DNA of 64,000 nt from Paraconexibacter algicola (GTDB taxonomy: Bacteria; Actinomycetota; Thermoleophilia; Solirubrobacterales; Solirubrobacteraceae): NCBI RefSeq assembly GCF_003044185.1, contig NZ_PYYB01000001.1:558001-622000 (forward strand), given 5' to 3'. Positions 17,613 through 23,535 of this stretch are shown here, piece after piece. The notes under the pieces are model-generated. The model saw only the letters and a list, made by a program, of their open reading frames with translations, searched no databases and had not been told where the DNA came from. The position numbers and the translations under genes were made by a program. The first letter of the stretch is position 1, and each line of letters begins with the position of its first letter.

Positions 17613-18074
17613 GTGCGCATCACCGCGAAGGCCGACTACGCCGTCCGGGCCGCGATCGAGCTCGCCGCCCATGCCGGGGACGACCGACCGACCAAGGGCG
17701 AGGCGCTCGCCCGCGCGCAGGACATCCCCCTGAAGTTCCTCGAGAACATCCTCGCGGACCTCCGGCAGTCCGGGATCGTGCGCAGCCGGCGCGGGGCCGA
17801 CGGCGGCTACCTGCTCGCCAAGCCCGCCGACGAGGTCACGATCGCCGACATCATCCGCGCCGTCGAGGGCCCGCTCGCGCACGTGCGCGGCGAGAAGCCC
17901 GAGGAGGTCGAGTACGCCGGCAACGCCGAGTCGCTGCAGCAGGTCTGGATCGCCGTGCGCGCCGCGCTGCGCAGCGTCGCCGAGACCGTGACGCTCGCCG
18001 ACGTCGCCGCCGGCGAGCTGCCCGAGTCGGTGACGAAGCTCGCCGCCGACCCGGAGGCCTGGGTCACGCGCTAG
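17613..18074 (+). CDS. Rrf2-family transcriptional regulator (cysteine-free, CymR-like)
   Basis: A 153-residue winged-helix regulator. The family start [17 protein letters not shown], the recognition region [20 protein letters not shown] and the wing [11 protein letters not shown] are all clear. It contains no cysteine, so it cannot bind an iron-sulfur cluster as IscR, NsrR or RsrR do; this is the CymR-like class that controls sulfur and cysteine genes. It overlaps the 3' end of cysA by 11 bases in convergent orientation. Control of the sulfate importer is inferred from this position. Confidence 0.9.
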
Positions 18075-19068
18075 GCGCGCTCGGAGCGGCCGGTGCGGTC
18101 GCCCCGGCGAGGTCCTCGGGGGCGAACGCGGACGCGCTCGTCGGCCGGACCCAGACGATGTCGCCGCTGCGCAGCTCGAGCGCCTGCGCCTCGTGGCGGG
18201 TGATCTGGGCGGTCAGGTCGGTGCCGTCGTGGAGCGTGAGCTCGACGCGCACCTGGAAGCCGAGGTGCGCCACGCGCGTCACCTGCGCCTCGACCGCGTC
18301 CTCGCGCGGCCCGTCGGACAGCTCCAGGTCGTGCGGGCGCACGACGCGCTCGCCGAGCTGGCTGACCTCGCCGAGGAACGACATCACGAACGGCGTCTCC
18401 GGGCGGTCGTAGAGCTCGCGGGGCGGCCCGACCTGCTCGATCCGCCCGTCGCTCATCACGGCGATCCGGTCGGTGACGTCCATCGCCTCCTCCTGGTCGT
18501 GCGTGACGAGCACGGTGGTCACGTGGACCTCCTCGTGCAGGCGGCGCAGCCAGGCGCGCAGCTCGGCGCGGACCTTGGCGTCGAGCGCGCCGAACGGCTC
18601 GTCCAGCAGCAGGACCTTCGGCTCGACGGCGAGCGCGCGGGCGAGCGCCATCCGCTGCCGCTGACCACCGGAGAGCTGCGACGGGTACCGCTTCTGGTAG
18701 CCGGCGAGCCCGACGACGCCGAGCAGCTCGTCGACCTTCTCCTCGATCTCGGCCTTCGGCCGCTTGCGGATCTTCAGGCCGAACGCGACGTTGTCACGGA
18801 CGCTCATGTGCTTGAACGCGGCGTAGTGCTGGAACACGAAGCCGACGCCGCGCTCCTGCGGCGGCACGTGCGTGACGTCCTTGTCCTCGAGCACGACCGA
18901 GCCGGCGTCCGGGCGCTCGAGGCCCGCGATGACGCGCAGCAGCGTGCTCTTGCCCGAGCCGGACGGGCCGAGCAGCGCCGTCAGCGACCCGGTCGGGATG
19001 TCCAGCGACACGTCCGTCAGGGCCTGGAAGTCGCCGTAGCGCTTGTCGACGTTGGAGACGGTGATCAT
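18064..19068 (-). CDS. cysA: Sulfate/thiosulfate ABC importer ATP-binding protein
   Basis: ATPase of the sulfate/thiosulfate importer. Of 334 residues, Walker [10 protein letters not shown] is at 34-42, the Q-loop follows in VFQHYAAF, signature [15 protein letters not shown], Walker [13 protein letters not shown] and the switch His in [11 protein letters not shown]. The C-terminal part is a TOBE-like beta region ([18 protein letters not shown]). It is last in the operon, 7 bases after cysW, and ends in an Ala/Pro tail overlapping the convergent Rrf2 gene. Confidence 0.94.
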
Positions 19069-19075
19069 CGGGACC

Positions 19076-19960
19076 TCAGTGATCCTTGCGGGGGTTGATG
19101 AGCGTCATCGCCAGCAGCGTGCCGAGGGCGATGACGGCGAGGAGCGCGGAGGCCGCGTAGGCGCCCGCGAGATCGAAGTTCTGGTACCGCTTCTCGACCA
19201 GCAGCGGCAGCGTCTCGGTCTCGCCGCTGATCTTGCCGGACACGACGCTGACCGCGCCGAACTCGCCGACCGCGCGCGCGGTCGAGAGGACGATGCCGTA
19301 GGCGACGCCCCAGCGGATCGACGGCAGCGTGATCCGGCGGAAGCTCTGCCAGCGCGTGGCGCCGAGCGTCGCCGCCGCCTGCTCCTGGTCGTCGCCGACC
19401 TCGCGCAGCACGGGGATGACCTCGCGCGCCACGAACGGCAGGCAGACGAACACGGTCGCGATCACCATGCCGGGGAGGCTGAAGATGATCTGGATGCCGG
19501 CGTCGGCGAGCTCGTCGCCGAACCAGCCGGTCTTGCCGTAGACGAGGATCAGCGCGAGGCCGACGACGACCGGGCTGATCGCGAACGGCAGGTCGAGGAT
19601 CGCCTCGAACACGGGCTTGAAGCGGCTGCGGCCCAGGCGACCGCGCACGAGCGACAGGGCGGCGAGCACGCCGAGCACCGTGTTGATCGGGACGGCGATG
19701 AGCGCGACCGTGACGGTCAGCCAGAACGCGCTGATCGCCGCCGGGGTCGTGACGCTCGCCCAGACCTCGTCGACGCCCGGCGCGAACGTCTCGTAGAGGA
19801 CGTAGCCGACCGGGAAGGCCAGCAGCAGGCCCAGGTACGTGAGGGCGATGACCCGCAGCCCGTAGCGGGCGACGCCGCGGCGCAGGACGCGCAGCACCGG
19901 GGACGGCGCGCGCTCGGGCTCCGTCGGGAGCACCGGCGTGACGGTCGCCTCAGCGCTCAT
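19076..19960 (-). CDS. cysW: Sulfate ABC importer permease CysW
   Basis: Membrane permease with six helices, 294 residues. The EAA loop that docks CysA reads [21 protein letters not shown]. The family-typical [21 protein letters not shown] and [15 protein letters not shown] are present; the latter pattern is shared by CysT and CysW. Its start overlaps the cysT stop by 11 bases. Assigned CysW rather than CysT by order and by the Gly-Trp-Phe-Gly stretch after helix 3. Confidence 0.92.
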
Positions 19961-20810
19961 GGCGGGTGCTCCAGCGCTCCAGCAGCCGCAGGCCGAGGAG
20001 GACGATCAGGGACAGGGCGAGCAGCACGACGGACACGGCGGCGGCGCCGCGCAGGTTGTCGGACTCGAGCTGCTTGAACACGAAGACGGACGCGACCTGC
20101 GTGTCGAACGGGACGTTGCCGCTGATGAGGATCAGCGATCCGAACTCGCCGATCGCGCGGGCGAACGCGAGCGCCGCGCCCGACAGGATCGCGGGCCCGA
20201 GGTTCGGCAGGACGATGCGGCGGAAGATCGTCACCGGGGTCGCCCCGAGCGAGGCAGCGGCCTGCTCCATCTCCCGGTCGAGCTCGATGATCACCGGCTG
20301 GACCGACCGCACGACGAACGGGAGCGTGACGAACAGCAGCGCCAGGACGACGCTGAACTGCGTGAAGCTGACGTTGACGCCGATCGGGCTCTTCGGCCCG
20401 TAGAGCGCCAGCAGGGTCAGGCCGGCGACGATCGTCGGGAGCGCGAACGGCAGGTCGATGATCGTGTTGACGAACCCCTTGCCGGGGAACTCGTCGCGCA
20501 CCAGGACCCACGCGATCACCGTGCCCATGACCGCCTGAACGGCGGCGACGATGAGCGAGACGATCAGCGTGAACTGCAGGGCGCTGACGGCCTGCCGGGA
20601 CGAGACGGCGGTCCAGAAGCCGTCGAGGCCGTCGTCGAACGAGCGGGTCGTCACGGCTGCGAGCGGCAGCAGGACGATCAGCCCGAGCCACAGGACGACG
20701 AGCCCGAGCGCGAGCGGACCGGGTCCGCCCACGACGCGGTCGGCCGCCCCGCCGCGCGCGACGCGGCGGGGCGACTCGTCGCCGGCGACGGTGGTCGCGG
20801 GCGTGCTCAC
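19950..20810 (-). CDS. cysT: Sulfate ABC importer permease CysT
   Basis: Partner permease, 286 residues, with LPFALPTIVAGLTLLALYG, EAA loop EQAAASLGATPVTIFRRIVLP, and ARAIGEFGSLILISGN. The GTG start overlaps the stop of the upstream binding-protein gene (GTGA). It forms a heterodimeric channel with CysW. Confidence 0.92.
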   Translation of the reverse strand: MSTPATTVAGDESPRRVARGGAADRVVGGPGPLALGLVVLWLGLIVLLPLAAVTTRSFDDGLDGFWTAVSSRQAVSALQFTLIVSLIVAAVQAVMGTVIAWVLVRDEFPGKGFVNTIIDLPFALPTIVAGLTLLALYGPKSPIGVNVSFTQFSVVLALLFVTLPFVVRSVQPVIIELDREMEQAAASLGATPVTIFRRIVLPNLGPAILSGAALAFARAIGEFGSLILISGNVPFDTQVASVFVFKQLESDNLRGAAAVSVVLLALSLIVLLGLRLLERWSTRHER

Positions 20811-21772
20811 TTGGCGGTCGACACTCCCGCCTCTTCCTCGATCTTCGCGATCGAGCCGGCCTCGGGGTCGAACAGCTCCGTGTTGAGCTTCTTCCAGCCG
20901 CCGATGTCCTCGATCGTCTTGAGGTTCTTGGCGGGCTTCAGCGGGCCGGACGGCGGGTCGTAGCCCCAGTCGGCGAAGAACTTCTGGCCCTCGGGGCCGG
21001 TCGCGTAGTCGATGAACGCGTCGGTGCCCTCACCGGCGGTCTTCGTCTTGGCGATGAGCAGGTCGATCTGCAGCGTGTCCTCGGGGACGACGACGTCGAG
21101 CTCCTCGCCCTTCTTCTGCGCGGTGATCGCCTCGTAGTAGTAGGAGAGCAGCACGTCGCCGGTGCCGGAGGTGAAGGTCTGCAGCGCCTCGCGACCGGAC
21201 TTGTCCTGGACCTTGACGTGGTCCTTGATGAGCGTGTCGACGTAGTCGATGCCGCCGTAGGCGAACGCGCCCATGAGGTTCCACTTCGCCGCCCCCGAGG
21301 TGAACGGGTTCGGGGTGACGACGGAGACGCCCGGCTTGATCAGGTCGTCCCAGTTGCGGATGTTCTTCGGGTTGCCCTTGCGGACGATGAAGGAGACCTG
21401 CGAGGTCGAGACCTTCTCGAAGTCGTCGACGAGGCCCGCGTCCTGCAGGCGGGTCATGTCGGGCTCGGTGGAGAAGGTGACGACGTCGGCCTTCTGGCCC
21501 GCCTCGACCGCGCGGCTCTGGTCGCCCGACGCGCCGAAGGAGGTCTTGAAGCCGATGCCCTCGCCCTCCGTGGTCTTCTCGAACGCGGGGATGAGCTCGT
21601 CGTAGACGACCTGCGGCGTGGAGTAGGCGACGAGCGAGAGCGTCGACCTCGAACCCGAGGAGGAGCCGGCGTCGGCGCCGTCGGTCGAGTCCGAGGCGCC
21701 ACCGCAGCCGGCCGCCACGAGGGCGAGGCCGGTGGCCGCGAGCGCGGCGATGCGGGGGAATGAGCGGTGCAC
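20807..21772 (-). CDS. sbp: Sulfate/thiosulfate-binding lipoprotein
   Basis: Extracytoplasmic binding protein of the importer, 321 residues. A lipoprotein signal ends at the lipobox VAAGC (Cys23), followed by a Ser/Gly/Asp linker. Family stretches include SLVAYSTPQVVYDELIPAFE, GASGDQSRAV, and VVTPNPFTSGAAKWNLMGAFAYG, close to Sbp/CysP proteins. GTG start with a good AGGAGG-like ribosome site (ggagg) eight bases upstream. First gene of the sbp-cysT-cysW-cysA operon, divergent from thyX. Confidence 0.93.
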   Translation of the reverse strand: MHRSFPRIAALAATGLALVAAGCGGASDSTDGADAGSSSGSRSTLSLVAYSTPQVVYDELIPAFEKTTEGEGIGFKTSFGASGDQSRAVEAGQKADVVTFSTEPDMTRLQDAGLVDDFEKVSTSQVSFIVRKGNPKNIRNWDDLIKPGVSVVTPNPFTSGAAKWNLMGAFAYGGIDYVDTLIKDHVKVQDKSGREALQTFTSGTGDVLLSYYYEAITAQKKGEELDVVVPEDTLQIDLLIAKTKTAGEGTDAFIDYATGPEGQKFFADWGYDPPSGPLKPAKNLKTIEDIGGWKKLNTELFDPEAGSIAKIEEEAGVSTAK

Positions 21773-21912: not shown

Positions 21913-21918
21913 TACGCT
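21913..21918 (+). promoter_or_regulatory. -10-like hexamer of thyX
   Basis: TACGCT ends 9 bases before the GTG start of thyX, with no ribosome-binding site between. This fits a leaderless transcript starting at or beside the GTG and supports the chosen start. Confidence 0.5.
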
Positions 21919-21927
21919 GACCGCCCC

Positions 21928-23535
21928 GTGCTCTACCCGGTCGAGTCCTTCACCCCCGACGAGCAGGCGCTGCTGGCGCCGCACGTGACGAACCTCGACC
22001 GCCCCGTGTTCGCGCTCGTCGGCCTGCCCGAGACGGTCAAGGGCGCGCTCTTCGCCCGCTACTCCCGCTACCAGGGCACGCTGCGCCGCCTGTTCCTCGA
22101 CGAGTTCGCCGACTCGCTGGGCGCCACCACCGCCGCCCCGGCCTGGGACGGCGACGAGGGCCGCCGCGCCGCCGACCTCTACGAGCGGATCTTCCTCGGC
22201 TACGGCGACGACTCCGTCGCGCAGCTCGGCGGCGCGCACGTCGCCTGCGAGTGGACCTCGAACGTCCTCACGAAGATCCTCCAGCGCCCGCGGCTGGGCT
22301 CCTACCTGGAGCAGTCCACGCGCTACATCGCCTACGACGCCCCGATCGAGGGCACGAGCGACTACCGCTACTACCGCGACGAGCAGCTCGGCCCCGTCTA
22401 CGAGGCGGCGATGGACGAGATCTTCTCGATCTACTCGGCCTGCATCCCGAAGGTGATCGCGTGGGCGGACGCCGCCTACCCGCCGCCGGACGGCGAGCCG
22501 ACCGCGGCGCACCGCCGGGCGATCACGGCGAAGGCGCTCGACCTGCTGCGCGGCCTGCTGCCGGCGTCGTCGCTGTCGCACATGGGGATCTTCGCCAGCG
22601 GTCAGACCTACGAGCAGCTGATCCTCCACCTGCTCGCCCACCCGCTGCCCGAGGCGCGCGAGTACGGCCGCATGATCCTCGACGCGATCAAGGCGACGAT
22701 GCCGAGCTTCGTCGCGCGCGTCGAGCGTCCCGACCGCGGCGGCGAGTGGGTCTCCTACCTCGAGCACCGCGAGAGCGCCGCGCGTCGCTGGGTGGCGCGC
22801 CTGGGGCTCGACCGGCCGTCCGGGGACGGCTCGGTGCGCCCATCGGTCGAGCTGCTGCACGTCGACGGCGACGAGGACGCCCTGCTCGCCTCGCTCCTGT
22901 TCGAGGCCGCCGGGGTGCGCGAGGAGGAGACGCGCATCCGCCTCTCCGCGCTCGGCGCCGACGAGCGCACCCAGCTCCTGGCCGACCTCGTCGGCGAGCG
23001 GCGCAACCGGCGCCACCGGCCCGGCCGCGGGTTCGAGGCGCTGCGCTACCGCTTCGAGATCGTCAGCGACTACGGCGCCTTCCGCGACCTGCAGCGCCAC
23101 CGCATGCTGACCGTGCAGTGGCAGACGCTCGGGCCGCACCTCGGCGCCGGCGTGCCGGACGAGGTCGTCGCCGCCGGCTGCGGGGACGAGTACCGCCGCG
23201 CGCTGGAGATCTCCCGCGCGGAGTTCCAGCGCCTGCACGACGCGGGCCTCGCGACCGCGGCGCCCTACGCGCTGTGCCTGGGCTTCCGCATCCGCTACGT
23301 GCTCGACTGCAACGCGCGCGAGGCGATGCAGCTGATCGAGCTGCGCTCCGGCCGCGAGGGCCACCCCTCCTACCGGGCGGTCGCGCACGAGATGCACGCG
23401 CAGATCGCGGCGGTGCACCCGGCGGTCGCGGGCGCCATGCGCCACGTCGACCGCGAGACCGAGCCGCGCCTGGAGCGCATCCTCGGCGAGATGCGCACGC
23501 AGGCGAAGCTCGACGCGCTCACGCCCCGCGCCTGA
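21928..23535 (+). CDS. Tandem-domain ThyX-like (flavin-dependent thymidylate synthase family) protein
   Basis: A 535-residue protein made of two ThyX-like halves; ordinary ThyX has about 220-260 residues per chain. The family motif RHRxxSxxxxSxRY appears in two imperfect versions. At 120-133 it is RPRLGSYLEQSTRY, with the His replaced by Pro; at 390-403 it is RHRMLTVQWQTLGP, with both Ser replaced by Thr and the distal Arg by Gly. FAD- and dUMP-binding features therefore seem divided between halves. Each half ends with helix-rich sequence like ThyX C-termini (for example GREGHPSYRAVAHEMH). The GTG start is supported by the upstream -10. Whether it makes dTMP or has another flavin-dependent role cannot be told from sequence alone. 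Confidence 0.82.
   Translation: MLYPVESFTPDEQALLAPHVTNLDRPVFALVGLPETVKGALFARYSRYQGTLRRLFLDEFADSLGATTAAPAWDGDEGRRAADLYERIFLGYGDDSVAQLGGAHVACEWTSNVLTKILQRPRLGSYLEQSTRYIAYDAPIEGTSDYRYYRDEQLGPVYEAAMDEIFSIYSACIPKVIAWADAAYPPPDGEPTAAHRRAITAKALDLLRGLLPASSLSHMGIFASGQTYEQLILHLLAHPLPEAREYGRMILDAIKATMPSFVARVERPDRGGEWVSYLEHRESAARRWVARLGLDRPSGDGSVRPSVELLHVDGDEDALLASLLFEAAGVREEETRIRLSALGADERTQLLADLVGERRNRRHRPGRGFEALRYRFEIVSDYGAFRDLQRHRMLTVQWQTLGPHLGAGVPDEVVAAGCGDEYRRALEISRAEFQRLHDAGLATAAPYALCLGFRIRYVLDCNAREAMQLIELRSGREGHPSYRAVAHEMHAQIAAVHPAVAGAMRHVDRETEPRLERILGEMRTQAKLDALTPRA

Follow-up and report, generated by a model that had tools for sequence, protein, structure and literature searches.

A tandem ThyX-like protein of Paraconexibacter algicola with a conserved division of active-site residues between its two halves

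In the flavin-dependent thymidylate synthase (FDTS) ThyX, a homotetramer, each active site is assembled from three subunits (PMC6514825). Subunit A supplies the Arg-His-Arg (RHR) residues and Arg199 (Arg174 in the Thermotoga maritima enzyme, Tm), subunit C supplies Ser105, Arg107 and Tyr108 (Tm Ser88, Arg90 and Tyr91), and subunit B supplies Ser71 and Arg190 (Tm Arg165) (PMC6514825). The PBCV-1 structure agrees, in that Gln75 and Arg182 belong to one monomer whereas Ser88 comes from the other (PMC3498832), and the T. maritima substitutions S88A, R90A and Y91A strongly impair catalysis (PMC8316439). Here we describe a tandem ThyX-like protein of Paraconexibacter algicola that divides these residues between two halves of a single chain. 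Its gene lies in a stretch of 64,000 nucleotides (RefSeq assembly GCF_003044185.1, contig NZ_PYYB01000001.1, positions 558,001 to 622,000), referred to below as the window.

Tandem ThyX proteins have been noticed before. For Chloroflexi, a paper of 2009 refers to a "ThyX domain duplication", in the relevant passages as uncharacterised (Valas and Bourne 2009, PMC3224940); judged by description only, the Chloroflexi protein very probably belongs to the same family, and the ThyX passages of PMC3224940 do not speak of a division of the motif. Our search of the open literature, outside which most subscription papers lie, found neither a description of a split motif nor a biochemical study of a tandem enzyme, and literature on CT632 and "two ThyX domains" yielded nothing past Valas and Bourne. 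The RefSeq proteins WP_164711104.1 (Euzebya) and WP_009276148.1 (Parabacteroides plasmid) are 40–44% identical to the window's protein over nearly the full length and share its division of residues; plasmid-borne tandem proteins already carry the RefSeq name "FAD-dependent thymidylate synthase", and for these two the thymidylate synthase name is annotation only. A possible lead is the Chlamydia trachomatis FDTS, reportedly the subject of Griffin et al. 2005, which has about 529 residues and may share the tandem architecture; if that enzyme is of the tandem type, a tandem ThyX is already known to be active. The conserved, role-matched split of active-site residues is the new element of the present analysis.

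The reading frame (Table 1) has a GC content at third codon positions (GC3) of 99.1%, and its GTG start is shared, with relatives from other genomes beginning there or within a few codons. Thy1 (PF02511) is the sole family matched by the protein, at a whole-protein score of 93.8 bits; in a profile search of the genome the C-half scores 49.8 bits (E 3.6e-13) and the N-half 42.5 bits (E 6.4e-11). Since each half separately passes the curated gathering cut-off of 24.8 bits, the tandem architecture is not due to chance. The original prediction placed two degenerate, complementary forms of the ThyX signature at residues 120–133 and 390–403, and the residues read as it stated (RPRLGSYLEQSTRY and RHRMLTVQWQTLGP, respectively). 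The RHRX7S signature is intact in neither domain (RPR...S.RY in the N-half, RHR...T.GP in the C-half) but is complete when the halves are pooled. A further claim, that the N-half keeps both serines, is true of the window's protein but does not extend to the family: the first, Ser125, is not conserved, being Ala in 35 of 62 proteins, and the conserved core of the N-half motif is E-x-S-x-R-Y (residues 128–133).

Active-site residues were counted in 67 full-length tandem proteins (62 from Actinomycetota, Bacteroidota and IMG/VR, four from Bacillota plasmids and one from a phage), mapped through alignments to M. tuberculosis (Mtb) and T. maritima ThyX and numbered as in the latter. All 67 keep Arg78, His79, Arg80 and Arg174 in the C-half, which has lost Arg90 and Tyr91 and has varied residues at the Ser88 position; all 67 likewise keep Glu86, Ser88, Arg90 and Tyr91 in the N-half, which has lost His79 and Arg174. 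The ThyX active-site set (R78, H79, R80, S88, R90, Y91 and R174) is present in every protein, spread over the two halves, and the Bacillota and phage members carry the same division at 20–25% identity to the window's protein. By the assignment of residues to subunits in solved tetramers, the C-half has kept the role of subunit A and the N-half that of subunit C. Judged by sequence, pairing a C-half with an N-half would restore the full A/C face, and the opposite combination, in which the RHR position of the N-half faces the SxRY position of the C-half, would be inactive.

These observations suggest that the tandem protein is probably a composite-site thymidylate synthase. As a variant of ThyX it is conserved and widespread and, it appears, uncharacterised. 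It looks like an obligate hetero-domain ThyX, neither half of which should work alone, a reading that draws on the sequence, the predicted fold, the conserved split and the protein's mutual exclusion with other thymidylate synthases. It would be the sole thymidylate synthase of the cell, a flavin-dependent enzyme of ThyX type whose two domains, an ancient tandem pair, share out the labour. The C-half would provide the flavin adenine dinucleotide (FAD) site through Arg390-His391-Arg392, together with Arg473, the Arg174 equivalent, which would polarise the uracil; the N-half would provide the substrate loop (Glu128, Ser130 and Arg132) and a tyrosine lid (Tyr133). Each productive site would lie where a C-half and an N-half are in contact, just as a site of the canonical homotetramer lies between two different subunits. 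Like ThyX, the pooled halves hold the residue set for binding FAD and deoxyuridine monophosphate (dUMP), and the protein would be expected to bind both and to be active. Canonical ThyX is a homotetramer of chains of about 220–270 amino acids with four identical sites; the tandem protein has two domains in one chain, and two chains may reasonably be predicted to assemble into a pseudo-tetramer in which, per four domains, two sites are live (C-half RHR with N-half SxRY) and two have decayed. The original prediction had suggested a composite site, and this idea is well supported both by the division in 67 of 67 relatives and by its match to the subunit supply in solved FDTS tetramers.

The same prediction also allowed that one half might be purely structural. 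Catalysis might be left to a single half, with the other a purely structural or regulatory relic, since several canonical residues are lost in each half and the asymmetry of duplicates often leaves one dead partner. But the complete set is found in neither half: in every relative His79 and Arg174 are missing from the N-half, and Arg90 and Tyr91 from the C-half. The impairment of the T. maritima S88A, R90A and Y91A enzymes implies that a half without Ser88, Arg90 and Tyr91 should not work alone. Nor would relaxed selection be expected to keep either E-x-S-x-R-Y or RHR...R174 in 67 of 67 proteins; each half retains an invariant set of catalytic residues, and a relic half is therefore improbable.

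Structure prediction gives both halves the Thy1/ThyX fold, as in ThyX of T. maritima (TM0449) and M. tuberculosis. AlphaFold2, run with the family alignment, modelled the full protein at a mean predicted local distance difference test (pLDDT) score of 83 and a predicted template modelling (pTM) score of 0.83, and the C-half of this model (residues 302–513) matches ThyX chains at Z ~16 (6j61, 1o26). Because the VIA matches of the full model concern chiefly the C-half, a separate model was made of the N-half (residues 1–295; pLDDT 80, pTM 0.76), and this model matches ThyX chains at Z 8.5–11.8, the best being 2af6, with unrelated chains at 4.6. A sequence search of the PDB gave a weak best match to 4p5a (E 0.043); 8ceg (E 0.46) was taken as a chance match.

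No other recognised thymidylate-making gene occurs in the P. algicola genome (4.74 Mb, six contigs): profile scans of it detected no second Thy1, no ThyA (PF00303), no dihydrofolate reductase (DHFR, PF00186) and no thymidine kinase (PF00265). A canonical ThyX or ThyA elsewhere had been named as part of what would point to a different function, and neither was found. We then tallied Thy1, ThyA, DHFR and thymidine kinase in 198 scanned Actinomycetota genomes. The tandem gene is present in 60 of them (full-length matches, 40–78% identical in a protein search), and all 60 lack both a canonical single-domain ThyX and a full ThyA; a canonical ThyX and/or a ThyA or ThyA-like gene is found in 132 of the 138 genomes without the tandem gene (Fisher p 2.6e-44, a value that overstates independence, as the genomes are related). 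Organisms with ThyA need DHFR because ThyA oxidises folate. DHFR is encoded in 17 of 17 genomes with a strong ThyA, in 2 of 87 with canonical ThyX and no strong ThyA, and in 1 of the 60 tandem genomes. By this distribution the tandem genomes behave like ThyX genomes, being without ThyA and DHFR like most ThyX-only genomes sampled; the absence of canonical ThyX and intact ThyA and the lack of DHFR in 59 of 60 are as expected for a sole synthase of ThyX type. Thymidine kinase occurs in 16 of the 60.

The tally bears on a second alternative, that the protein is a ThyX-fold methylase acting on another substrate (e.g., methylation of uridine monophosphate or dUMP, like PolB of Streptomyces cacaoi) and not a thymidylate synthase. 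Foldseek ranks PolB first (4p5b), PolB is also the best, though weak, match by sequence in the PDB, and the titles of entries 3ge9 and 3fnn describe the ThyX of C. glutamicum as dispensable. However, across the 198 genomes the tandem gene and all other thymidylate synthases exclude each other, and in 60 it is the sole candidate; DHFR is absent, and ranked by VIA Z the nearest PDB entries are canonical ThyX (6j61, 1o26). We consider this alternative slightly less probable still than a relic half.

Several individual genomes in the survey deserve mention. The one tandem genome with DHFR, a 350-contig draft (G129), has a ThyA fragment and the DHFR gene together on contig C181, which reflects either contamination or recent acquisition. 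Another draft (G040) has two tandem genes (C71 and C5). Twenty-eight genomes (e.g., G015, G020, G030 and G043) without Thy1, strong ThyA or PF00186 DHFR have only a weak PF00303 match of 225–250 amino acids at ~34–47 bits, perhaps an archaeal-type ThyA. Five genomes (G051, G039, G009, G075 and G162; loci L108–L112) lack both a tandem ThyX and a full ThyA, and their only Thy1 gene encodes a single divergent protein of about 300 amino acids; these five, which have a weak Thy1 match only, yielded no tandem relatives and no separately encoded halves. The L112 protein reads HRVFSRNSASSRAIP, with THR where RHR is expected.

Beyond these genomes, a scan of GTDB recovered 43 tandem loci, mostly from Solirubrobacterales, and distant full-length relatives occur on two large actinobacterial plasmids and one Parabacteroides plasmid. 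Distant tandem ThyX proteins are also encoded on ~200 kb plasmids of Bacillus and Paenibacillus, in three of which helicase genes adjoin the tandem gene, and by the jumbo phage Tunturi_5 (L096, L099, L100, L101 and L103). Viral contigs in IMG/VR gave one tandem locus with the alignment as query and no match with a single protein as query. In a tree and profile comparison all N-halves fall into one clade (100/100) and all C-halves into another (100/98). This clade structure points to one ancient tandem in which the division was made before the lineages of Actinomycetota, Bacteroidota, Bacillota plasmids and phage parted. Given these single clades and the same division across all of those lineages, it is very unlikely that the halves arose in this lineage through independent fusion or degeneration of recent date and fit the subunit roles by coincidence, even though each half has diverged strongly from the other as well as from canonical ThyX and hhalign detected no similarity between N-half and C-half. 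Four records of metagenome-assembled genomes titled Bifidobacterium breve (L027, L039, L041 and L060) encode Solirubrobacterales-like proteins 69–77% identical to that of the window; the titles look wrong.

A number of points weigh against a composite-site synthase. The NCBIfam ThyX equivalog TIGR02170 is missed, at 41.1 bits against a cut-off of 87.9, and regions 67–81 and 90–100 of the N-half model are of low confidence. The P. algicola genome is 95.6% complete, so that a gene not detected might simply have escaped assembly; the same absence is seen in one-contig relatives (e.g., G121, G016 and G078). Where canonical ThyX has the FAD-binding GHxS loop, the N-half reads GDDS and the C-half has PGR instead. 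Finally, the third-subunit residues (Mtb Ser71 and Arg190) do not lie cleanly in one half, and the half that carries Arg165 differs by lineage: it is the C-half (Arg464 in the window's protein), with Gln in the N-half, in 62 proteins, and the reverse in the five from Bacillota and phage. Two N-halves and two C-halves could be placed in a 222 tetramer in two ways, with role B falling to the C-half or to the N-half, and lineages may therefore use different arrangements.

If the composite-site reading is correct, about one third of the sampled Actinomycetota, as well as other bacteria and phages, use an asymmetric ThyX to make thymidylate. Its active site could not be built from one domain, and the family would represent a natural experiment in the subfunctionalisation of an interface active site. 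The role of each subunit in the still debated ThyX mechanism would also become separately mutable, which the homotetramer does not permit. For annotation, scans for the signature motif in single domains would label both halves broken. A more speculative extension, to which we give little weight, is that gene fusion released two of the tetramer's four sites from catalysis and that the decayed sites hold a new conserved role (e.g., nucleotide sensing, or separate binding of folate or nicotinamide adenine dinucleotide phosphate, NADPH), served by invariant residues without a canonical ThyX counterpart (GDDS, K116 and Q226 in the N-half; NRR-PGR and W398-Q399 in the C-half), with the third contributor to the live site swapped between lineages.

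Table 1. Features of the tandem gene, in window positions (genome positions where given); residue equivalents in T. maritima numbering
Feature	Position	Strand	Description
Tandem ThyX-like protein	21928..23535	+	535 aa, GTG start, open frame; PF02511 twice
N-half Thy1 domain	22162..22707 (genome 580162-580707)	+	PF02511 profile 36-191; AlphaFold2 model
GDDS loop, residues 93-96	22204..22215	+	Counterpart of GHxS FAD-phosphate loop; Ser96 invariant
N-half motif RPRLGSYLEQSTRY, residues 120-133	22285..22326	+	E128, S130, R132, Y133 equivalent to Glu86, Ser88, Arg90, Tyr91; without His79
N-half counterpart of N163-x-R165...R174 helix, residues 224-235	22597..22632	+	Degenerate: S224, Q226, L235
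C-half Thy1 domain	23011..23424 (genome 581011-581424)	+	PF02511 profile 47-191; model residues 302-513
C-half motif RHRMLTVQWQTLGP, residues 390-403	23095..23136	+	Arg78-His79-Arg80 kept; without Glu86, Ser88, Arg90, Tyr91
C-half N462-A-R464...R473	23311..23346	+	Asn163, Arg165, Arg174 equivalents kept
TACGCT, -10-like hexamer	21913..21918	+	Ends 9 nt before GTG; by eye

Scans for sigma-70 promoters and terminators gave no match. Similar TANNNT hexamers were seen by eye at about the same spacing in several relatives, and the spacing of TACGCT and its TANNNT counterparts makes a leaderless transcript possible. The flank adjoining the tandem gene (window positions 17613–21772), also read by eye, encodes an Rrf2-like regulator on the + strand and, on the - strand, a sulfate-type ABC transporter set of a binding protein, two permeases and an ATPase.
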